Position numbers and translations under genes: made by a program. The notes beneath the pieces were generated by a model, which was given only the letters and a program-made list of their open reading frames with translations, had not been told where the DNA came from and ran no database searches. From Sulfurovum sp. (lineage in GTDB: Bacteria; Campylobacterota; Campylobacteria; Campylobacterales; Sulfurovaceae), in contig JALXCZ010000029.1 in NCBI GenBank assembly GCA_026990595.1, positions 1 through 53,534 of the forward strand: a stretch of DNA of 53,534 nt. Reading direction: 5' to 3'. Positions 26,549-51,194 of this stretch are shown here, piece by piece (position 1 is the stretch's first letter; every line of letters begins with the position of its first letter).

Positions 26549-27358
26549 TTACCAAAATTTATACCCAATTTTAAAATTTAATGAATCATGCAAGTCCTCA
26601 TCTATTTCTCTATTATATGAGAGCGTTGCAAACCAGTCTTTGTTTATTTTATAGTAGAGGGTACTACCTAAACTTCTAGTAACATGTTCATTGGTAAATT
26701 TACTTTCAGAGAGTCCAAATGTGAGATTGGCATAAAATTTATTTGTAAAAAAGTATCCTGCTCCAATATAGAAATTATTGGTGTCTCGTAGTGGGGTAAT
26801 GACTTTTTCATCTTGTACAAAGGTATGACTAAGTCCAGTAAAAACAGAAAGTGAATGGGTAGGATAATAACTTAATGAAGAGTAAAGTGTATAATCTGTT
26901 TTATTTCCGGTAAAGTCATAAGTAGGGAACTTTATCCCCATGCCCAAACCAAGTTTTAGTTTTTTTGTGAGCTTGATTCGTTTTCTAATTTTAAATGTGG
27001 TATCTAAAATACCACTGTTTGTATTGTGTGAATAGTAGCCGCTTCTTAGAGAGTAACTCCAGTTGTTATGATAATAACTGAGTTGTACCGTACCGGTATC
27101 TTGTTGTTTTCTTCCTACCAAGTCTTCGTTGGTACTAAAGCCATACCCTAGTGTGAGTGTCATACTGTCGTATTCGGTTTCATTAGGGAGTGTTAGTATC
27201 GTTGTTGTGCATCCTTGGGCATTGACTTGATTTAAGAAAGGAGTGTGCGGACATTGGTCGAGACTATCGGGTACTCCATCAAAATCTTCATCATTGATAC
27301 CTTGGGCATAACTTAGTGTACTTGCTAATAGTCCTAGAGCCAATAGTTTTTTAGTCAT
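26549..27358 (-). CDS. TSP3-repeat plus beta-barrel outer-membrane protein (cassette 1)
   Basis: 269 residues from MTKKLLALGLLASTLSYAQG, which gives a clean signal peptide; an in-frame upstream extension is Arg/Lys-rich and overlaps the neighbour. The mature N-terminus NDEDFDGVPDSLDQCPHTP is a thrombospondin-type-3/OmpA-linker calcium motif, with a second Cys in AQGC. About 210 residues of amphipathic strands follow, ending LNFKIGYKFW, a barrel C-terminus. A paralogue with the same layout lies in cassette 2 at 45693. Last gene of the RR1-HK1 operon (overlaps the preceding gene by 8 bases). Probably an outer-membrane channel or sensor accessory; function unknown. Confidence 0.65.
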   Translation of the reverse strand: MTKKLLALGLLASTLSYAQGINDEDFDGVPDSLDQCPHTPFLNQVNAQGCTTTILTLPNETEYDSMTLTLGYGFSTNEDLVGRKQQDTGTVQLSYYHNNWSYSLRSGYYSHNTNSGILDTTFKIRKRIKLTKKLKLGLGMGIKFPTYDFTGNKTDYTLYSSLSYYPTHSLSVFTGLSHTFVQDEKVITPLRDTNNFYIGAGYFFTNKFYANLTFGLSESKFTNEHVTRSLGSTLYYKINKDWFATLSYNREIDEDLHDSLNFKIGYKFW

Positions 27359-27875
27359 CATTATGCTCCTCTTCATGTCTATCTTCTGTCTCATTCTCAA
27401 CATGCTCCTGTGTTTGTGTTTCGATATTGTCCTCTGTTTCATTACTGGTTTCATTCTCTACACTATTGTCAGTTTCATTGGAAGTTTCGTTTTCAACATT
27501 GTTTTCGGTCTCATTGGAGGTTTCATTCTCTATATTATTTTCTGTCTGATTGGTAGTGCTCTCTTGTGCATCATTGTCTTTGATCCTCTCTAATGTATCA
27601 TTATGATGTTTGGAATATCTACGTGGTTTATGTCGAGTGATTTCTCTAAGTGCAGCATTCGCATGTTTACTACTATTGATCGATCTTAGTTTCGTTAGTG
27701 CCTCTATTCGCTCTGTCTCTTTCATTTGTACTATTTCACGTTTAAAAGCATTCATTAATTTAAAGCGTTCTGATACAGAAGCCTTTTGTATAGCTTCTAT
27801 CTGGGAATCTACATCAGAGATAATGGGCAGTGACAATGCAATGCATAACACCCATGGAAGAAAAAAATATTTCAT
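27351..27875 (-). CDS. Secreted helical protein with acidic repeat tail (cassette 1)
   Basis: 174 residues. Signal peptide (about 1-20); a short helical domain (about 22-80, IEAIQKASVSERFKLMNAFK ... ERIEALTKLR); then a tail of 12-residue repeats built on ENET-SNET (about 100-150); then an acidic His end. The overlap with HK1 is 4 bases (ATGA), showing translational coupling. The helical domain looks distantly similar to that of the cassette-2 protein at 46500 (IxxIK...MN/IN..K...M....R). A periplasmic ligand-binding regulator of the kinase would fit the position, but nothing in the sequence proves it. Confidence 0.6.
   Translation of the reverse strand: MKYFFLPWVLCIALSLPIISDVDSQIEAIQKASVSERFKLMNAFKREIVQMKETERIEALTKLRSINSSKHANAALREITRHKPRRYSKHHNDTLERIKDNDAQESTTNQTENNIENETSNETENNVENETSNETDNSVENETSNETEDNIETQTQEHVENETEDRHEEEHNDD
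27427..27544. repeat. In-frame 36-bp tandem repeat in the acidic tail
   Basis: About three degenerate copies of a 36-bp unit encode the ENxxENETSNET repeats. Multiples of three keep the frame, so length can vary between strains without breaking the gene. Confidence 0.7.
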
Positions 27876-28927
27876 CTGTTCTCCTCCGGGAGGTTTTTAA
27901 AATCAAGTATGACCTCTGTCCCCTGATTTAACTTGCTTTTTATATGTAGGATAATATTGAGTTCATTTGTCAGCTTTTGGACAATATGCAATCCCAAACC
28001 TATGCCTCTGTCCTGTTCTTTATAATAACGATCCAATACTTTTTGGATCTCTTTGATCCCTTTACCGGTATCTTGTATGACCAGTCTGTTTTGAGCAATA
28101 GTGAGCTTCACTTCTCCGTTGGGTTTATTATATTTTGCAGCATTGCTTAGTAGATTATCGAGTATACGGGTAAGTAGTTCTTCATTGCTCCATTTAAGAA
28201 GATCATGCTTTTTGTAATACACAAAAGAGATCTTTGGGTAGATGTTCTGTATGAATTCCAAACGTTTTTTTGCCAATAGTGCTATATCTATATGACTGTT
28301 TTGTGAAGGAGAGTGATGCAGGAAACTTTTTAGATTATTCTGCAACAAAAGAATAGTATTGATACTCTTTGAGACCTTGTTAATGAAAGGATCTTCTCCT
28401 TTTTCTTTTTTGAACATATTGATATTGAGTAACATTGCAGTAATGGGTGTATTAAAATCATGCAGGATATCTTTAATGAATTCATCGTTGATACGTAATG
28501 CTTTTCGAATAGGTTTAAGACTATAGAGGGTAAAGAAGAAAGCAATTCCCATGAGTAAGAAAGTTGCAACAATGAACTTAATCCAGAGAATATTTCGTAT
28601 ATGGGTCATATCTTTATGTAGTGCTTTTTTAGGATAGGAGATCCTGATCAGATACTTTTGGGATTTTGGAATAGTAAAAAAACTATATAAACCGCTGTTT
28701 TCATACAGTCTGTTCAGCTTATGGTTGTCTTTGGGTGCAAAATTGAACTGAAATTGGTCACATTTCATCGTATAGCTGCATAATTGCATGGTTTTATGTA
28801 TATTTTGCTTATACTCTTTGATCTCTGTATGATTAAGTTCCCCAAAAAGCAAAACAAGCAACACTTCCAACAGTGAAAAAAATACAAGAAAATTTTTGAG
28901 CAGAGACTCTTTTTCATAACTTTTCAA
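27872..28927 (-). CDS. Sensor histidine kinase HK1
   Basis: 351 residues from a TTG start at 28927 that overlaps the RR1 end by 14 bases and has AGGAT 6 bases upstream; the two paralogous kinases start at the same aligned position. Two membrane helices (about 12-30 and 115-137) flank a periplasmic domain of about 85 residues. The phospho-acceptor is His156 in DILHDFNTPITAML; note N in place of the usual R/K of HExRTP. N box: ILDNLLSNAAKYNKP; G boxes: DTGKGI and RGIGLGLHIV. OmpR-type partner is RR1. The ligand is unknown. Confidence 0.85.
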   Translation of the reverse strand: MKSYEKESLLKNFLVFFSLLEVLLVLLFGELNHTEIKEYKQNIHKTMQLCSYTMKCDQFQFNFAPKDNHKLNRLYENSGLYSFFTIPKSQKYLIRISYPKKALHKDMTHIRNILWIKFIVATFLLMGIAFFFTLYSLKPIRKALRINDEFIKDILHDFNTPITAMLLNINMFKKEKGEDPFINKVSKSINTILLLQNNLKSFLHHSPSQNSHIDIALLAKKRLEFIQNIYPKISFVYYKKHDLLKWSNEELLTRILDNLLSNAAKYNKPNGEVKLTIAQNRLVIQDTGKGIKEIQKVLDRYYKEQDRGIGLGLHIVQKLTNELNIILHIKSKLNQGTEVILDFKNLPEENR

Positions 28928-29540
28928 GAATATATCCTCTGCCTCTGATATTTTTAATCGTGATACCAAGTCTTTGTTTTATTTTGGTTAATGCCACGCG
29001 AAGGGCTGTATCTGAAATATGGTCAAGACATTCATAGAGTTCTTCTTTATTTACGATTTTGCCTTGATGAAGAAGGAGTTTCTCAAAAATCTTAAACTGC
29101 ACATTTCCAATATCAATGATCTCCCCACTCAATCGTAGAATTCTTGCATATGAATCATAGTTTATATTGCCATAATGTATTGATCTCTTCTTGAATTTCG
29201 CATCAATACGAATCAGTAATTCTTCTGGAGAAAAAGGTTTTTTGATGTAGTCAACAGCACCCAGATCAAACCCTTTTGCCATAGAGTTCATATCAGTAAG
29301 TGCAGTAATAAATATAACAGGTGTTCGGTCTTCAGCATTTCTGAGTGACCCCAACAAAGACAGACCACTCCCTTCCGGCAGATTAATATCAAAAAGATAA
29401 AGATCATATTTTTGGGAAAAAGTAAGTTCTTCAGCCTCTTCAATATTTAGGGCTGTATCTACACCATAGCCTTCACGAGAGAGAAACAGTTGTAGTGTTT
29501 CACTTAGTATTTGGTCATCTTCTAAGAGCAGGAGTTTCAT
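28914..29540 (-). CDS. OmpR-family response regulator RR1
   Basis: 208 residues. The receiver domain has the acidic pocket EDD (7-9), phospho-accepting Asp51 (LFDINLP), Thr near 79 (FITAL) and Lys near 101 (KKPF). The C-terminal winged helix ends in the typical RGRGYILEKL. It is first gene of the RR1-HK1-repeat protein-barrel operon. Two GAGTGTTA/TAACACTC direct repeats at 11-bp spacing lie upstream, the geometry of OmpR-family sites, and a matching triple repeat precedes the nine-haem cytochrome gene. This suggests autoregulation plus control of the cytochrome. Confidence 0.88.
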   Translation of the reverse strand: MKLLLLEDDQILSETLQLFLSREGYGVDTALNIEEAEELTFSQKYDLYLFDINLPEGSGLSLLGSLRNAEDRTPVIFITALTDMNSMAKGFDLGAVDYIKKPFSPEELLIRIDAKFKKRSIHYGNINYDSYARILRLSGEIIDIGNVQFKIFEKLLLHQGKIVNKEELYECLDHISDTALRVALTKIKQRLGITIKNIRGRGYILEKL

Positions 29541-29612
29541 TTTATACCTTTTGTGGGTGCATTTATTTTAACATAAAAATTGACTTTTGGTTGTGAAGGA
29601 TTGTATCAAAGA

Positions 29613-29631
29613 GAGTGTTAAGGGAGTGTTA
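29613..29631 (-). promoter_or_regulatory. Two TAACACTC direct repeats upstream of RR1
   Basis: GAGTGTTA at 29613-29620 and 29624-29631 (TAACACTC on the minus strand) are spaced exactly 11 bp, one helical turn, as for OmpR/PhoB-type regulators. The motif matches the repeats before the cytochrome gene. A TACAAT hexamer (29600-29605, minus) lies close downstream, so the site could overlap the -35 region. Confidence 0.6.
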
Positions 29632-29650
29632 TTTGAAATGTGGATGGGAG

Positions 29651-29672
29651 AAAAAGGGAGAGAGACTCTCCC
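29651..29672 (-). terminator. Intrinsic terminator of the nine-haem cytochrome gene
   Basis: On the minus strand GGGAGAG-TCT-CTCTCCC is followed directly by TTTTT, a textbook rho-independent terminator 30 bases after the cytochrome stop. It separates this gene from the RR1 operon. Confidence 0.85.
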
Positions 29673-29701
29673 TCCCCGCGAAGCAAACAGGAATTTCTCT
29701 T

Positions 29702-32017
29702 TTATGGGTTTGGTCCGTTATGACAGTCATAACATGAGACCTGATGATCTTTTTGCAGGGTTTTGTTTCCATGTTCAACACTGAGTGTACGTGTTGTGAA
29801 CATTTCAGAAAGTGCAGAACCTCTGTAGTTTTGTCCATGACAAACTTTACATTGTGCAGCATTTCTTTCTGCAACATGTTTATGACCGCTGACCCAAGAC
29901 TGTCCAACAGGGTGCATACCGTGTGGTCCGCCTGTAGTAGTGTTTGGTACAGAACTGTGACATGAGGCACATTCACCGATAGTTCCTGTATGTCCTTGAA
30001 TACCTTCACTTAAAATATTGTCCGCATTGTGTGCAGGGTAGATGGCATGTGTTGCACCGTGACAAGCTTCACACTGTAACTTACCATGACCGGTACTAAA
30101 TCTATATAGACTGACACCTGTCATTGGTGTATTGGTGTTGGTAGCAAATTTTGTATCTACCACATGTCTGAGTGTATTGGTCGCTGGATCAATTGCTGAT
30201 GTTTCACGCATACCATCATGGTGACATGCTTGACAGTTTGGCTCACTTAGCCAACCTTTTCTATTGGCATCTCCTACATTGCTCATATGACCATGACAAC
30301 TTTGACATTGCATTGTGTTCTGTCCGTTTGCATCTTTAGAATCTCCCATAGCACCTCTAAGACATTTAGTTGCTGCCCCTGGGTGACAAGCATAACATGC
30401 ACCTCTATTGGTACTGTCATTCATTGCTAAGTTGGTATATGGATCGATAACTTTAGCATGGTAACTATGTATAGCTGTAGTAAAGGCTTTAATATTATCT
30501 ACACCTGTACCTGGTAATGCATTGGAGCTGTGACATGCTGAACATAAGATAGGCGTACCTGCTCTTGCACTTGCTTCAAGTCCTGCTGCATCATAAGTGT
30601 AGCCTTTTTTATTGAGTGATGCCATATGATCTTTGACTGCATTTGGCATACGTTCATCATGCAGACGTAGTACGTTCAGCTTGAAGTCTTTTTCTGGGTC
30701 TGTGTCAGCAACCCATCCTGCATTTGGTTTTGCTTTTGGTGACAGTGAATTGGTTGCGTGACAACGCTTACAATCCATCTCATCACTAATAGGCAGTACC
30801 ACTTTAGCTGTAGCAAGTACATTTCCTGCAGTGTCTTTTGCTGTGACTTTGACCAGTGGATAGTAGTTTTTACTTCCGTCATCATTATAAGGTGTAAGTG
30901 GTAAGCCTTCTGCTTTCCACCACTTCTCTTGTGTATCAAATAACATACTTTGAGGTATGGTACTTGGTGTTTTCTTACCCGTCAAACCTACGTCAGGCTG
31001 TAAATTTGAATTTGGAAAAAGTTTATTACTAAAGTCCCAGAAGTTGGTTTTATCTGCACTTGACGTGTTGATTTTACCATCAGTTCCTGTGGTAGATTCA
31101 TAGGTCAATGTTACACCGCTAGTGACTAAACCACCATTTTTATCTTTGAGTTGTGCATGGAGATTATTGTAAGGAGGAAGTACTGAGAATACAGAGAAGT
31201 CATTTCCATCCATACAGTGCATTCCTAGGTCATTCCATGCTGTGAGTATATATCCGTTGGATGTAGTTGTTCCACCACCAGTTGTTCCACCACCTGTTGA
31301 AGTGTTGGTATCGGTAGTTCCTCCATCATCATGGTCATCATCATGACTACTATCATTTTGAGTATCATTGTTTGAATCCATAATATCTGGTGTACCATTA
31401 TGATTGCTGTCATCTTGGATGTCAGGTGTTCCATTATTATTGGTGTCTTCATACGCTGTAGGTGTACCGTTGTGATTTGGATCTTCATAGACATCTACGG
31501 TACCATTTTGATTGCTATCGTATGTAGTGTCAGGGGTCGTTGTTTCAGTTGCTCCTTGAGGAATATCTATCACCATAGGTGTATCTTTGACATGGTCACT
31601 ATTGTTATCGTCCATAGCAGTTGGGTCTTGTGGAAGATCTACATATCCTAAATCAACGATATCACCTGTCATCTGGATACGTGTAGATTCATTACCTGAT
31701 GCATCTTGGAATGCTAACATAGTAATGGTTCTTTGTGCAGGATTGTCTTCATTCATTGTCATCACAATATAACAACTACTGTCTTTTTTCACATCCAGTT
31801 CAAAAGGATGACGGTTGGTATCGTTATTATTTGATTTGGTTGTGTAATATTTTCCGTTATCACAGAAAGCCTCGATTTTGGTTCCCGGTACTGTACCTAT
31901 AAGCTTTGTTGTCTGTGTGGTAGTTGTTGTTGCAGCAGTTGTTCCGCCACCTCCACCACCACAGGCAACAAGTAAAGGTATAGCTGACAAACTAAGTAGT
32001 ATGGATCTTTTTTTCAT
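29702..32017 (-). CDS. Nine-haem c-type cytochrome lipoprotein with calcium-type repeats
   Basis: 771 residues from the ATG with AAGGAG upstream (MKKRSILLSLSAIPLLVACG, lipobox LVAC). A Gly/Thr linker follows, then an acidic DxNxNGTPD-type repeat region (about 160-235), then a beta-rich block beginning AWNDLGMHCMDGNDFSVFS. The C-terminal half has nine C-x2-C-H sites: CKRCH, CSACH, CYACH, CQSCH, CQACH, CEACH, CASCH, CKVCH, CYDCH. It should be exported, matured by cytochrome c biogenesis, and act in extracytoplasmic electron transfer. Substrate unknown. Three TAACAC repeats precede its TATAAT promoter. Confidence 0.88.
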   Translation of the reverse strand: MKKRSILLSLSAIPLLVACGGGGGGTTAATTTTTQTTKLIGTVPGTKIEAFCDNGKYYTTKSNNNDTNRHPFELDVKKDSSCYIVMTMNEDNPAQRTITMLAFQDASGNESTRIQMTGDIVDLGYVDLPQDPTAMDDNNSDHVKDTPMVIDIPQGATETTTPDTTYDSNQNGTVDVYEDPNHNGTPTAYEDTNNNGTPDIQDDSNHNGTPDIMDSNNDTQNDSSHDDDHDDGGTTDTNTSTGGGTTGGGTTTSNGYILTAWNDLGMHCMDGNDFSVFSVLPPYNNLHAQLKDKNGGLVTSGVTLTYESTTGTDGKINTSSADKTNFWDFSNKLFPNSNLQPDVGLTGKKTPSTIPQSMLFDTQEKWWKAEGLPLTPYNDDGSKNYYPLVKVTAKDTAGNVLATAKVVLPISDEMDCKRCHATNSLSPKAKPNAGWVADTDPEKDFKLNVLRLHDERMPNAVKDHMASLNKKGYTYDAAGLEASARAGTPILCSACHSSNALPGTGVDNIKAFTTAIHSYHAKVIDPYTNLAMNDSTNRGACYACHPGAATKCLRGAMGDSKDANGQNTMQCQSCHGHMSNVGDANRKGWLSEPNCQACHHDGMRETSAIDPATNTLRHVVDTKFATNTNTPMTGVSLYRFSTGHGKLQCEACHGATHAIYPAHNADNILSEGIQGHTGTIGECASCHSSVPNTTTGGPHGMHPVGQSWVSGHKHVAERNAAQCKVCHGQNYRGSALSEMFTTRTLSVEHGNKTLQKDHQVSCYDCHNGPNP

Positions 32018-32045
32018 GTGCGCTCCTTTTTCATGTGCATTCAAA

Positions 32046-32099
32046 ATTATAGGATACATGGTATTACTGTTGTGTTAGGGAAGTGTTAGGGGAGTGTTA
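32046..32099 (-). promoter_or_regulatory. Promoter with three 11-bp-spaced TAACAC repeats, nine-haem cytochrome gene
   Basis: Minus strand: TAACAC at 32099-32094, 32088-32083 and 32077-32072, then TATAAT at 32051-32046. The proximal repeat covers the expected -35 place and no good -35 hexamer is seen, as for promoters that need an OmpR-type activator. The same repeat occurs upstream of RR1. Confidence 0.7.
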
Positions 32100-32112: not shown

Positions 32113-32793
32113 TTAGGATTCTTTTTGCAATACTCTTTTGGCAGTAACCAATTTCTTTGCATAATATCCGTGGTCAATAGGGGAGATAATGATCCCTTTT
32201 TTCCTGGAGGCAGCATGAATGAACTTTCCACCCCCTATGTAGATACCCACATGGGTGACAGGAATACCGCGTGACTTGTCGGTAAGAAAAAAGAGAAGAT
32301 CGCCTTTTTGAAGGTTGTTTTTCTCAACTGGGGTTCCTTTTTTAGACTGTGCCCATGCTGTGCGGGGAAGATGGATATTATGTTTGTTATAAAGGTATTG
32401 CACATATCCGGAACAGTCAAATCCTTGTGGTGTAGTACCGCCCCAGACATATTTTCCGCCTTTGAAAACTTTAGCATCTTTGAGTAGTTGTTTTCTGTCT
32501 GCTTTTGAAAGGTGATAGATTTTTCCTGCTTTTTTTGCAGCTGCTTTGGCTTTGGCAATACGCTTGGCTCTTTGTCTTGCAGCTTCTGCCATACGGGCAA
32601 GGTTTTCTGCACGATGCAGTTCATTATAGATGGCCTGGAGTGAATATTCTGTGGCTTTTTGGTTCAAGTAGGCATTTTGGGTATGTGCAATCTGCTTACT
32701 GTGGAATACTTTGCCTTTTTTATCGGTAATAGTAAAGAGATTCCCGTATGCAAAGGATAAAACAGTAGTTATAATGATCACTTTTTTGAACAT
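32113..32793 (-). CDS. NlpC/P60 (C40) peptidoglycan hydrolase
   Basis: 226 residues from MFKKVIIITTVLSFAYG, chosen for the GAGGGG upstream and clean signal peptide; five more residues are possible. A basic, Ala-rich helical region (about 60-110) precedes the catalytic domain: Cys127 in FDCSGY, His181 in THVGIYIG, His193 in FIHAAS. It cleaves peptide stems of peptidoglycan, usually gamma-D-Glu-diaminopimelate bonds. Export places it in the periplasm. Single gene; no clear regulation seen. Confidence 0.88.
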   Translation of the reverse strand: MFKKVIIITTVLSFAYGNLFTITDKKGKVFHSKQIAHTQNAYLNQKATEYSLQAIYNELHRAENLARMAEAARQRAKRIAKAKAAAKKAGKIYHLSKADRKQLLKDAKVFKGGKYVWGGTTPQGFDCSGYVQYLYNKHNIHLPRTAWAQSKKGTPVEKNNLQKGDLLFFLTDKSRGIPVTHVGIYIGGGKFIHAASRKKGIIISPIDHGYYAKKLVTAKRVLQKES

Positions 32794-32857
32794 GATCCCC
32801 TCATCCATATTTTTTACTATTATAACATAAAAAAACAGAAGGGTTTATAAAGTTTTT

Positions 32858-44039: not shown

Positions 44040-45080
44040 CTAAACTACTTTACTCATATCCAAATGAACAGTAACGATATTCTCTTTGACTTCCAAGCTC
44101 TTTGCTATGTCAAGTTGTTGACAGAGTTTCTCGACAATATGCAAGCCGATACCCAGACCCCGTTCATTCTCTTTGTAGAAACGTTCAAAAGCCTTGGTGG
44201 GGTTCTTGATCCCGTCATAAGAACTGTTTGCTATTGAGAGTGTTGTTCCCTGCATAGAAATCTTGATGAAACCGTCTGAAGTATTGTATTTACAGGCATT
44301 GCTCAGCAGGTTGTAAATGATCCTTGCAAAAGCGTTAGGGTCACTTTTGATGATACTGCTTTGAATGTTGACTTCCCAGTTCAGGTAGTCATACATGGGA
44401 GCAAAAAAATCAACCTGTTCCTGTACAATCTCCTTAAGATCGAATTTTTCTCGTTCAAATATTGCCTCTTTGAGGTATGCATCAAGATTGTTCTGCAGCA
44501 TAGAGATAGTTTGAGCACTCTTGCCGATATTCTCTACTTCTTCATTGTCTGCATCCATCATCTTGAGATTGACAAGTATGGATGTAAGAGGTGTGTTAAG
44601 GTCATGAATGATGTCTTTGATGAACATCTCCAGAAGCTGCAGACTTTTTCGCAGTGGACTGAGTACATAAAAAGAGAAGAGTACTGAGATAAAAACAGCA
44701 ATAAAAGAGAGTAGAAGAAACTGTCTTAATAGTGATATTTTTGTTCTATGAAGCAGTTTATAGTATTTGTTAAGCGGATAGAATACTTTTACTGCATCTT
44801 TTCTACTCTCCGGGAGAGGGACTAAAATATATATATTTTTTTGATCATGATAGAGTTCATAAAAGGTTTTTGTGCTTTTTTTTAAGGAAACTACATCAAT
44901 GTCAAACCGGTCATCATCAAAAAAAAGACTATAGTTTTTCATCTCCAAAACAAGCTCTCTGTCAATATGCACTTTTTCAACTTTATAGTAAAAATAGAAA
45001 ATAGAGACAAGAAAAATTTCGATCACAAGAAAGAAGAGGGTAAAACTCTTAAGCAGGGACTCTCTTTCAGATAATTTGAT
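44040..45080 (-). CDS. Sensor histidine kinase HK2 (probable AUC start)
   Basis: 346 residues if it starts at ATC 45080-45078, which aligns with the TTG starts of HK1 and HK3 and has AGGAG 6 bases before. The nearest standard start, GTG at 45026, would delete half of the first membrane helix (SLLKSFTLFFLVIEIFLVSI). Two membrane helices enclose a periplasmic domain of about 80 residues. Phospho-acceptor His159 is in DIIHDLNTPLTSIL; N box IIYNLLSNACKYN; G box GLGIGLHIVEKL. The start overlaps RR2 by 14 bases. Paralogue of HK1. Confidence 0.8.
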   Translation of the reverse strand: MKLSERESLLKSFTLFFLVIEIFLVSIFYFYYKVEKVHIDRELVLEMKNYSLFFDDDRFDIDVVSLKKSTKTFYELYHDQKNIYILVPLPESRKDAVKVFYPLNKYYKLLHRTKISLLRQFLLLSFIAVFISVLFSFYVLSPLRKSLQLLEMFIKDIIHDLNTPLTSILVNLKMMDADNEEVENIGKSAQTISMLQNNLDAYLKEAIFEREKFDLKEIVQEQVDFFAPMYDYLNWEVNIQSSIIKSDPNAFARIIYNLLSNACKYNTSDGFIKISMQGTTLSIANSSYDGIKNPTKAFERFYKENERGLGIGLHIVEKLCQQLDIAKSLEVKENIVTVHLDMSKVV

Positions 45081-45696
45081 AACCGACTCCTCTCACATTG
45101 TTAATTTGAAGATCGAACTTTTTTTTGAGTTTGGAGATGTGTACCCTGAGTGTAAGGTCAGAAGGTTTGTCCAAAAGGGACATCAAATCATTCTTATTGA
45201 CAGGATCGGGATAATGTTTAATGAGTGAAAGCAAAATACTCTTTTGTACTTTTCCTAAAGAGATAGATGATCCGTTATAGGAAATTTCCTCTTTTGTCAT
45301 ATCGATTTCAAAATTTTTGAATTGAAGTGCTTTTTGCAAAGTAGATGTTTTTGCTCTGATACGAATAAGAAGTTCTTCAGGATCAAAAGGTTTTTTCATA
45401 TAGTCATCTGCGCCAGCAATAAAGCTTTGTGTTACAGAAGTGACATCCCTCAGTGCACTGATGATAATGGCAGGTGTATGATCGTCTGCATCTCTGAGTG
45501 CCTTAAGCAGGTCTATACCGTTAAGTAGAGGGACATTGATATCTAAAAGATAGAGATCATATCGGTTATCATAGCTCAGGTCTATGGCCTCTTCTCCATT
45601 TTTTGCCCAGTCAAGTTCATGACCATGGCTGCTCAGATACTTGATGAGTGTTTTGGAGAGACTAGGGTCATCTTCAAGAAGAAGAAGTTTACTCAA
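45067..45696 (-). CDS. OmpR-family response regulator RR2
   Basis: 209 residues. The receiver has EDD (8-10), phospho-accepting Asp52 (LLDINVP) and Lys near 103 (KKPFDPEELL). The C-terminal winged helix ends VRGVGYQII. It is close to RR1 in length and sequence (LLLLEDD, DLYLxDIN, KKPFxPEELLIRI). The start overlaps the barrel gene stop by 4 bases. The operon order here is repeat protein, barrel, RR2, HK2. No direct repeats like those of RR1 were found upstream of this operon. Confidence 0.88.
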   Translation of the reverse strand: MSKLLLLEDDPSLSKTLIKYLSSHGHELDWAKNGEEAIDLSYDNRYDLYLLDINVPLLNGIDLLKALRDADDHTPAIIISALRDVTSVTQSFIAGADDYMKKPFDPEELLIRIRAKTSTLQKALQFKNFEIDMTKEEISYNGSSISLGKVQKSILLSLIKHYPDPVNKNDLMSLLDKPSDLTLRVHISKLKKKFDLQINNVRGVGYQII

Positions 45697-49037: not shown

Positions 49038-49703
49038 ATGACTCCAACCCTTTTACTACTTGAAGATGATCTGCAGCTAAGCGATACGGTAAAACACTTT
49101 CTTGAACTGAAAGGGTACGAAGTCTATTGTGCATATGATGGTCTGCAGGCACAGGATATAGTCTATGAAAAACATATTGATCTTATGCTTTTGGATGTGA
49201 AAGTTCCATATATCAACGGTTTTGAGTTTTTAAAGAGTGTCCGCAGTGAAGGTAAAGAGATACCGGCGATATTCATTACTTCTCTGCATAGTACAGAAGA
49301 TGTAGAACAGGGATTTGCATCGGGATGTGATGACTATATCCGAAAACCCTTTGCTTTAAAAGAGTTGCTTGTCAGGGTGGAGTCTCTGCTGAAACGTACT
49401 TTTGGTACACATGATGATAAAATAGAGTTAAAGGAAGGGCTTGTTTTTGATACGAAAGAACTGCTTTTAATACAGGATGAACAAAAAGTATCTCTGAAAA
49501 CAAAAGAGCTGAAACTATTGGCACTTTTTTTGCAGCATAGTAATGAACTTTTGGAATATGAAAAGATATTTGAAGCCTTGTGGGAATATGGTGAAGAACC
49601 AAGTCCGGGTTCACTTCGAACCTATATTAAAACACTTCGTGCAGCCATAGGCAAAGAGAAGATAGAGACGATCAAAAATATAGGATATCGTTTTGTTAAG
49701 TAG
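49038..49703 (+). CDS. OmpR-family response regulator RR3
   Basis: 221 residues. The receiver domain has EDD (9-11), phospho-accepting Asp53 (LLDVKVP), Thr near 81 (FITSL) and Lys near 103 (RKPFALKELL). The winged helix is in the C-terminal third (SLRTYIKTLRAAIGKEKIET, IGYRFVK). First gene of a three-gene unit with HK3 and a monohaem protein. A dyad and TATAAT lie upstream. It is more distant from RR1/RR2 than these are from each other. Confidence 0.9.
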   Translation: MTPTLLLLEDDLQLSDTVKHFLELKGYEVYCAYDGLQAQDIVYEKHIDLMLLDVKVPYINGFEFLKSVRSEGKEIPAIFITSLHSTEDVEQGFASGCDDYIRKPFALKELLVRVESLLKRTFGTHDDKIELKEGLVFDTKELLLIQDEQKVSLKTKELKLLALFLQHSNELLEYEKIFEALWEYGEEPSPGSLRTYIKTLRAAIGKEKIETIKNIGYRFVK

Positions 49704-50841
49704 TGAGAAAAGAAGTCTCATCCGGTTTTTACTGATCTATCTGACTTCTACCTTCTTGCTTTTTTCTTTAGCTTCCTGGATATTTTACAGCTCTGCTAAA
49801 CATCACTTGCTTGACCAACAAAGAGAAACATTGAAATATGAAGCAGAACATATCAAGTCACAGTTAAGAGTACTGCACAGATCAGATGCTAAAATACTGT
49901 ACTATCCTAAAAGTAAGCATATACAATCTGCTATCTATGATCTCGACAAAGCCTATATATTCGGTACTTTTAAGACAAAGCATACCCTTAATGACCATAA
50001 AGATGAAAATGTTCTTTATCATATTGTAAAAATAGAACCCTACTATCTGGGCGCAGCATACCTTCTTGTATCCAAAGAAATAGATTTTAAACCTATTGAA
50101 GATTTACAAAAGAATATACTTTTTTTTATGTTCGCAGCTGGGATCTTTTTCTCTATATTGGGATATTTCCTTGGAAGACTGTTTGTGGCACCGATGCGTG
50201 ACTCCATTGAACAGATGAATCATTTTATTCAAGATACAACTCATGAACTCAATACGCCTATTAGTACTATACTAACCAATATTGAGATGATAGAGACTTT
50301 TGGGAAACATGAAGAGAGTAGAAAAGAACTGAAACGTATAGAAATAGCATCTAAAACACTCAGCCGTATTTATGATGATCTGACCTATTTGAACCTGAAT
50401 CATCATTATCACCGTAAGATCATTACACTCAATATGAGTGATCTTCTTAAAGAACGTATCATTTATTTCTCAGCAATGGCTGAAGCAAAAGGCTTGAAAG
50501 TCACGATAGATATTGAGCCGGATGTTATTTTTAAAATGGATAAAAATGATGCCGTGCGTTTGATAGATAATATTATCTCCAATGCGATCAAATATAATAA
50601 ACCCAAAGGTATACTCTATATCAAACTTACCAAGGATGCTTTTATTGTAAAAGATGAAGGTATAGGTATTAGAGCAAAGGATCTTACTACTATCCTACAG
50701 CGTTTTAAGCGGGCAAATAAAAGTGAAGGCGGGTTTGGAATAGGACTTGATATCGTTGATCAGGTAGTACAGAATTATGGATTTGATCTACGGATAAAAT
50801 CTCAGGAAGGTAAAGGTACGGAGGTAATGGTCAAATGGTAA
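49693..50841 (+). CDS. Sensor histidine kinase HK3
   Basis: 382 residues from a TTG start that overlaps the RR3 stop by 11 bases, with AGGAT 6 bases upstream. Membrane helices at about 12-32 and 142-163 flank a periplasmic domain of about 110 residues. The phospho-acceptor is His184 in DTTHELNTPISTIL, with the same N-for-R change as HK1 and HK2. N box IDNIISNAIKYNKP, G boxes DEGIGI and GGFGIGLDIV. Ligand unknown; the downstream haem protein might be involved. Confidence 0.88.
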   Translation: MLSSEKRSLIRFLLIYLTSTFLLFSLASWIFYSSAKHHLLDQQRETLKYEAEHIKSQLRVLHRSDAKILYYPKSKHIQSAIYDLDKAYIFGTFKTKHTLNDHKDENVLYHIVKIEPYYLGAAYLLVSKEIDFKPIEDLQKNILFFMFAAGIFFSILGYFLGRLFVAPMRDSIEQMNHFIQDTTHELNTPISTILTNIEMIETFGKHEESRKELKRIEIASKTLSRIYDDLTYLNLNHHYHRKIITLNMSDLLKERIIYFSAMAEAKGLKVTIDIEPDVIFKMDKNDAVRLIDNIISNAIKYNKPKGILYIKLTKDAFIVKDEGIGIRAKDLTTILQRFKRANKSEGGFGIGLDIVDQVVQNYGFDLRIKSQEGKGTEVMVKW

Positions 50842-51194
50842 AAATAGTTTTTATTTTAAGCTTTATGAGTCTATGGGTATGTGCAGAAGAGTTGGATGTA
50901 CAAGAACAGTCTGTTGAGCAGAATTGTTTGCATTGTCATCAACAACAGCAGATACCCAGCAACTTGATCTACAAACGTTACTTGATGAAGTACAGTACTG
51001 ATAAGCGTATGGAAAAGGCGATATTTTCCTATTTAAAACATCCTGACAAAGTCCACTCCATTATGCCTTCTGCATTTTTTTCAAAATTTCCTATGAAAAA
51101 ATCTACAACAATGGATGACAGGCGTTTATATAAATATATTGAAAATTATTTAAAGATCTTTGATATCAAGAAAAAACTGGTTTTAGAGAAGTAG
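50835..51194 (+). CDS. Small exported monohaem protein
   Basis: 119 residues: signal peptide (about 1-17, WVCAEE), one haem site C-L-H-C-H (about 31-35), and a Lys-rich helical remainder with HPDKVHSIMPSAFFSKFP, whose Met could be a sixth haem ligand. It overlaps HK3 by 7 bases, so it is made with the two-component pair. A haem protein encoded in one unit with its kinase suggests redox, oxygen or NO sensing in the periplasm, but this is inference. It is unlike the 117-residue monohaem protein at 32858 except in size. Confidence 0.65.
   Translation: MVKIVFILSFMSLWVCAEELDVQEQSVEQNCLHCHQQQQIPSNLIYKRYLMKYSTDKRMEKAIFSYLKHPDKVHSIMPSAFFSKFPMKKSTTMDDRRLYKYIENYLKIFDIKKKLVLEK

Follow-up and report, generated by a model that had tools for sequence, protein, structure and literature searches.

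A predicted two-component regulon marked by TAACAC repeats at 11-bp spacing and linked to surface multihaem cytochromes in Sulfurovum

The window analysed here is a stretch of 53,534 nucleotides from contig 29 of a draft Sulfurovum genome (2.05 Mb, 52 contigs). On its minus strand, an NlpC/P60 protein gene is followed by an array of TAACAC repeats, the gene for a nine-haem c-type cytochrome, a terminator-like hairpin, a TAACAC pair and the genes for the response regulator RR1, a histidine kinase, a small acidic protein and an outer-membrane barrel (Table 1). An earlier note, made from the letters of this DNA, had called RR1 part of an orphan two-component system. It is not an orphan in the sense of lacking a kinase, because the gene of a cognate histidine kinase overlaps the 3' end of the RR1 gene.

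Table 1 Features of the RR1/cytochrome locus and of sites in related genomes
Feature	Position	Strand	Remark
NlpC/P60 protein	32113-32808	minus	upstream of the array
TAACAC, three units before the nine-haem cytochrome	32094-32099, 32083-32088, 32072-32077	minus	direct reading
Fourth, imperfect unit, TAATAC, before the cytochrome	32061-32066	minus	missed in the earlier note
Whole four-unit direct-repeat array before the cytochrome, 11-bp period	32061-32099	minus	
-10 box TATAAT, cytochrome promoter	32046-32051	minus	9 bp after last unit
Nine-haem c-type cytochrome	29702-32017	minus	lipoprotein signal, MtrC/MtrF-like domain
Intrinsic terminator-like hairpin and T run	29655-29677	minus	between cytochrome and RR1 promoter
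TAACAC, two units before RR1, TAACACTCCCTTAACAC	29615-29631 (units 29626-29631, 29615-29620)	minus	direct reading
-10 box TACAAT, RR1 promoter	29600-29605	minus	9 bp after last unit
RR1, OmpR/PhoB-type response regulator	28914-29540	minus	208 aa
Cognate histidine kinase	27872-28969	minus	overlaps RR1 3' end
Small acidic protein, predicted secreted	27351-27875	minus	conserved third operon gene
Outer-membrane protein, weak thrombospondin type 3 (TSP3) repeat, then predicted 12-stranded beta-barrel	26549-27358	minus	start 27358 chosen by us
Array-preceded NiFe hydrogenase operons, relatives	L079 1833-6425, L084 1485-5668, L189 279-4524		
TTCAT-N6-TTCAT sites before cytochromes, relatives	L215 1347, L223 1321, L226 3232, L233 1354		

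The receiver domain of RR1 scores far above its threshold (PF00072, 90.9 bits, cut-off 30.2), the winged helix falls just short (Trans_reg_C, PF00486, 26.1 bits against 26.2), and the protein aligns over its full length with residues 1-205 of BasR (E 3.5e-24). The NCBIfam models that would name RR1 (PmrA and PhoB among them) or the kinase all score far below their cut-offs, and we did not adopt those names. The predicted periplasmic loop near the N terminus of the kinase contains a Cys-X5-Cys motif (residues 64 and 70 of the listed ORF, the start codon of which is uncertain). All 11 related kinases examined keep the motif, as do 28 of 29 RR1-linked kinases; in the exception, L080, this part of the gene seems to be translated in the wrong frame. 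This conservation suggests that the kinase may read redox state or metal; a thiol or metal switch is a guess, if a reasonable one. The barrel model at the end of the operon (pLDDT 77) has its nearest folds among small porins and secretion channels, namely NanC, OmpG, FapF and COG4313 channels, and such matches of a predicted fold do not identify a function.

The cytochrome ORF was listed from 32059, just upstream of the -10 box; the true start is likely the lipoprotein methionine at 32017 (MKKRSILLS...), which opens a lipoprotein signal with a Cys-Gly run. The protein contains an MtrC/MtrF II/IV domain (PF22113, 52.7 bits, cut-off 30) and, like its full-length orthologues, nine CxxCH motifs rather than ten. 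No PDB relative was found by sequence up to E 1, and the structure model (mean pLDDT 39) was too poor for a fold search. In relatives, the N-terminal domain of 200 residues is also found by itself, as separate lipoproteins encoded at this locus; several of these lipoprotein genes follow a TAACAC array of their own.

All TAACAC units lie on the minus strand, which is the coding strand of both RR1 and the cytochrome. The earlier note had placed two of them at 29613-29631, before RR1; both are present, with a true start 2 bp away, and its three units at 32072-32099, spaced by 11 bp, are likewise present and are extended by the fourth. The RR1 promoter reads TAACACTCCCTTAACAC-TCTCTTTGA-TACAAT and the cytochrome promoter ends in TAATAC-CATGTATCC-TATAAT. 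The earlier note had seen the cytochrome repeats as covering the -35 place of a TATAAT promoter, and indeed a -35 element with a 16-18 bp spacer would overlap the third unit and the spacer that follows; the -10 box at the RR1 site, with the same 9-bp gap, had not been noticed. Neither window promoter has a usable -35 element at 16-18 bp (best at most 3/6 matches), and the 24 sigma-70-like sites detected in the region include neither of them. Taken with the -10 box at 9 bp, this places the array in the position of the -35 element, and such promoters should need an activator. The same features bear on the idea that the sites are real but repressive, RR1 covering the promoter until a signal releases it. 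Repeats over the -35 place would suit a repressor, but neither promoter has a usable -35 element or counts among the sigma-70-like sites, and the array ends at a fixed 9 bp before the -10 box, as it does at a fixed distance in the Pho box, an activation site. We therefore consider repression unlikely and RR1 the candidate activator of both promoters.

How unusual the repeats are depends on how strictly they are defined. The window contains four TAACAC pairs with up to one mismatch (100 shuffles: mean 0.41, largest 2), and the whole genome five exact pairs, three of them the window sites, against one for a reversed-pattern control. The other two look unrelated: one (C1:56280) lies inside an ORF predicted for the other strand, and the second (C30:12720), with an AT-rich spacer, about 42 bp before the gene of a small secreted protein. 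When the pattern is loosened, the control is just as common: 13 pairs with up to one mismatch against 20, five composites with the -10 box and up to two mismatches against 11, and totals about equal to the control in relatives. A single loose pair is thus uninformative, and we rejected loose genome-wide counts as evidence; it is exactness and location that are enriched. The earlier note had proposed a genome-wide scan for three units and had taken many repeats at random positions as the outcome that would speak against the regulon. With up to two mismatches, the cytochrome site is the one place in the genome with three units, matched in two registers; the control has none. Scattered repeats are what loose pairs give, but not what exact three-unit arrays or two units with a -10 box give.

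For a comparison across relatives, RR1 orthologues were defined by at least 60% identity or as broken copies, and occur in 27 of 78 genomes of the genus and, from a different family, in the genome G099. Their neighbourhoods make up 32 stretches from 28 genomes, all chosen for RR1 except L184, L192 and L193, which were chosen for composite matches. These neighbourhoods hold 31 exact TAACAC pairs at a spacing of 11 and six at 22, and no pair at the remaining spacings between 6 and 25; under a Markov model of these stretches, 0.1 exact pairs are expected. A gap of 9 to the -10 box occurs in 25 cases over the 32 stretches, other gaps from 0 to 21 in at most eight each. The gap of 9 has no case in 24 control stretches, a set that is not clean: eight come from the genome of the window (L094-L101, most chosen for containing a TAACAC pair, with L094 the locus of the paralogue RR2) and four are RR1-like loci at the level of the order (L204-L207). 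Positions of the -10 box left free in the search pattern are conserved as well, base 4 being A in 30 of 35 sites and base 5 A or C in all 35. For this count, eight of 42 matrix matches (see below) were omitted: a contig-end duplicate, an identical sequence, five that were weak or oddly placed, and the window cytochrome match, which was replaced by its register from the composite scan.

The exact composite TAACAC-N5-TAACAC-N9-TANNNT has 17 matches in the 78 genomes, compared with four for the reversed pattern. Sixteen lie within the RR1/cytochrome locus, including two in G004 (C21 and C50) that are probably one site on two contig ends; the exception is in G010, which lacks RR1, and is not part of this locus. 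The 16 precede RR1, the nine-haem cytochrome, lipoproteins sharing its N-terminal domain, lipoproteins with one, two or three haems, and a beta-propeller lipoprotein. The composite is present in 12 of 27 genomes with RR1 and in one of 51 without (Fisher p = 4e-6, uncorrected for the kinship of the genomes). A position weight matrix was trained on the exact sites, the genome under test being left out each time, and its threshold was set after the control scores were known. It gave 42 matches in 333 kb of RR1 loci and one in a 172-kb control set, made up of the paralogue loci L194-L203 (ten in all) and the remainder of the window. Thirty-eight of the 42 stand directly before haem/lipoprotein, hydrogenase or RR1 genes, two run off a contig end and two point elsewhere. 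The repeat consensus is CTAACACTYCN. Matches occur in 23 of the 28 genomes; G029, G053, G058, G108 and G112 have none above the threshold, of which G029 and G053 still show multi-unit arrays and G058 carries a site before an unlinked cytochrome gene. An autoregulatory site before RR1 itself exceeds the threshold in seven of the 28 genomes and is missing at that threshold in 21. The RR1 gene of G022 (L191 408-1030) is read in two frames, through a frameshift or an assembly error, and has retained its promoter array.

These counts bear directly on whether the repeats might be chance products of AT-rich DNA. Such an origin would fit the one-mismatch single pairs, which are no commoner genome-wide than the reversed pattern, but not an exact 11-bp period with an exact -10 gap across 28 genomes, nor the gathering of 16 of 17 exact composites at a single locus. 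Chance is excluded for the whole arrangement by the composites, the spacing and gap, the matrix and the scores of cytochrome upstream regions (see below), and we give it a negligible probability. Geometry, conservation, linkage to RR1 and gene content can all be read from the genomes themselves, and the predicted RR1 regulon is very probably real.

The upstream regions of the cytochrome genes provide a further comparison, from which L227 (cytochrome cut short) was left out. All 16 RR1-linked nine-haem cytochrome genes have matrix scores from 9.8 to 26.5, whereas eight of nine genes that are unlinked or in RR1-less genomes (four from each group) score from -9.0 to 0.8. The ninth, an unlinked copy in G058, scores 20.2 and may thus be regulated in trans. 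A second code, TTCAT-N6-TTCAT, again with an 11-bp period, precedes the cytochrome genes of the RR1-less genomes G024, G055 and G030 and the unlinked copy of G029; the cytochrome gene of the fourth RR1-less genome (G041) has neither code. In G024, G055 and G030, another response-regulator gene diverges from the same intergenic region, and in two of the three this gene is short or merged with other frames. From its upstream sequences, this looks like one cytochrome rewired between two regulators.

A regulator other than RR1 might bind the repeats, with RR1 a mere neighbour. The genome has 23 matches to RR1, and the candidates include RR2 (on contig C52, 49-53% identical to RR1) and the OmpR-family regulators at 45067-45696 and 49038-49703. 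The G058 contig that bears the unlinked cytochrome and its site also bears a relative of the 45067 regulator. Moreover, a related pair with an AT-rich spacer, TAACACTAAATTAACAC and variants of it, stands before TonB- or TonB-receptor-like genes in L058, L060, L073 and L099, and in L060 it follows relatives of the kinase (49693-50841) and one-haem protein (50835-51194) of the window. Related regulators may therefore read a similar core, and these pairs suggest a second regulon. Yet 12 of the 13 genomes with an exact composite have RR1, sites precede RR1 itself in seven of 28 genomes, and ten paralogue neighbourhoods of the genus contain none; nine of these belong to RR2, and L201 is, by its match range, of the 45067 type. 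We accordingly regard control by another regulator as improbable and keep RR1 as the predicted reader of the code. Its recognition helix also differs from that of RR2, with ALRVA(I/L)TKIKQ(K/R)L in most RR1 orthologues against ALRVNLAKLKNKL in RR2 (core RVA(I/L)TKIKQ against RVNLAKLKN). RR1-like systems of other families, with an A-type helix and the same kinase cysteines, have TAACAC repeats in three of four loci. The RR1 regulon proposed in the earlier note is upheld insofar as the code tracks RR1 orthologues and is absent at the paralogue loci, and it is wider than the two genes then named. In three relatives (G060, G031 and G106), an RR1-type array precedes the small and large subunits of a NiFe hydrogenase, followed by a five-haem cytochrome; the G060 proteins, on which the family test was made, match TIGR00391 and PF00374 above the cut-offs.

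Taken together, these results make RR1 a likely activator of the OmpR/PhoB type, one that substitutes for the -35 contact and governs a regulon for electron transfer at the cell surface. We infer the binding by RR1, its activating rather than repressing effect, the signal and the electron-transfer role from the arrangement described. The kinase encoded beside RR1 would phosphorylate it; phosphorylated RR1 would bind the 11-bp repeats head to tail, ending 9 bp upstream of the -10 box, and would do the work of a -35 element in recruiting RNA polymerase. It would thereby activate its own operon (RR1, kinase, small acidic protein and outer-membrane barrel) together with genes that encode multihaem cytochromes of the cell surface and lipoproteins related to them, and in some relatives the same promoter type would drive the NiFe hydrogenase with its five-haem cytochrome. 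The system probably serves to turn on a pathway of electron transfer at the cell surface. A fuller picture, offered tentatively, is that Sulfurovum-type bacteria use a dedicated redox-sensing pair, the Cys-X5-Cys kinase and RR1, to turn on electron transfer at the surface (and hydrogen oxidation in some relatives), and that in RR1-less members of the genus control of the same cytochrome has passed to a different regulator of the OmpR type, which reads TTCAT-N6-TTCAT.

This provides a testable regulon for surface multihaem cytochromes in uncultured or little-studied vent and sediment Campylobacterota. An operator-promoter formula with a named regulator and kinase allows target genes of unknown role to be found in any genome, the conserved cysteine pair of the sensor offers a first hypothesis as to the signal, and the code swap upstream of the same cytochrome would be an example of regulatory rewiring in nature. 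Passages of two papers mention multihaem proteins or genes of electron transfer from Campylobacterota and name no regulator there (PMC9769843, PMC11748539). No such regulon is described in the literature searched, most subscription journals lying outside its coverage. As an OmpR/PhoB-type system it is of a known kind; its regulator, code and target set appear undescribed in the literature searched.

Among known electron-transfer proteins, the window cytochrome resembles the outer-membrane cytochromes MtrC and OmcA in its MtrC/MtrF II/IV domain, lipoprotein signal and many haems, but differs in its haem-motif count, nine against ten, and in its N-terminal domain. A large MtrB-type porin was not found beside it, the operon barrel having 12 predicted strands, and no decahaem neighbour that could serve as a periplasmic partner appears in the loci read. 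Compared with the Geobacter Ext conduits (ExtH-ExtL), the window cytochrome matches none of the NCBIfam Ext models even at E 10. One order-level relative from another family has a rhodanese lipoprotein gene (L205 8837-10360) that is ExtH-like (NF040901, 77.7 bits, below the cut-off of 200) and lies behind a TAACAC array beside an RR1-like system. Among regulators, DccRS of C. jejuni reportedly reads TTCAC-N6-TTCAC with an 11-bp period. It is described in a review as activating a handful of genes for periplasmic and membrane proteins (PMC9449129). By description, DccRS is like the RR1 system an OmpR-type pair of Campylobacterota with an 11-bp period, but the RR1 code is TAACAC rather than TTCAC and its targets are multihaem cytochromes. 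A close parallel in architecture is PhoB of E. coli, an OmpR-family regulator in an autoregulated operon with its own kinase, and its Pho box, in which tandem 11-bp direct repeats of CTGTCAT replace the -35 element and end a fixed short distance before the -10 box. The RR1 system shares the regulator family, the 11-bp repeats in the -35 place and the apparently autoregulated kinase operon, and is set apart from PhoB by its repeat (CTAACACTYCN), its multihaem cytochrome targets and the cysteine pair in the sensor loop of its kinase.
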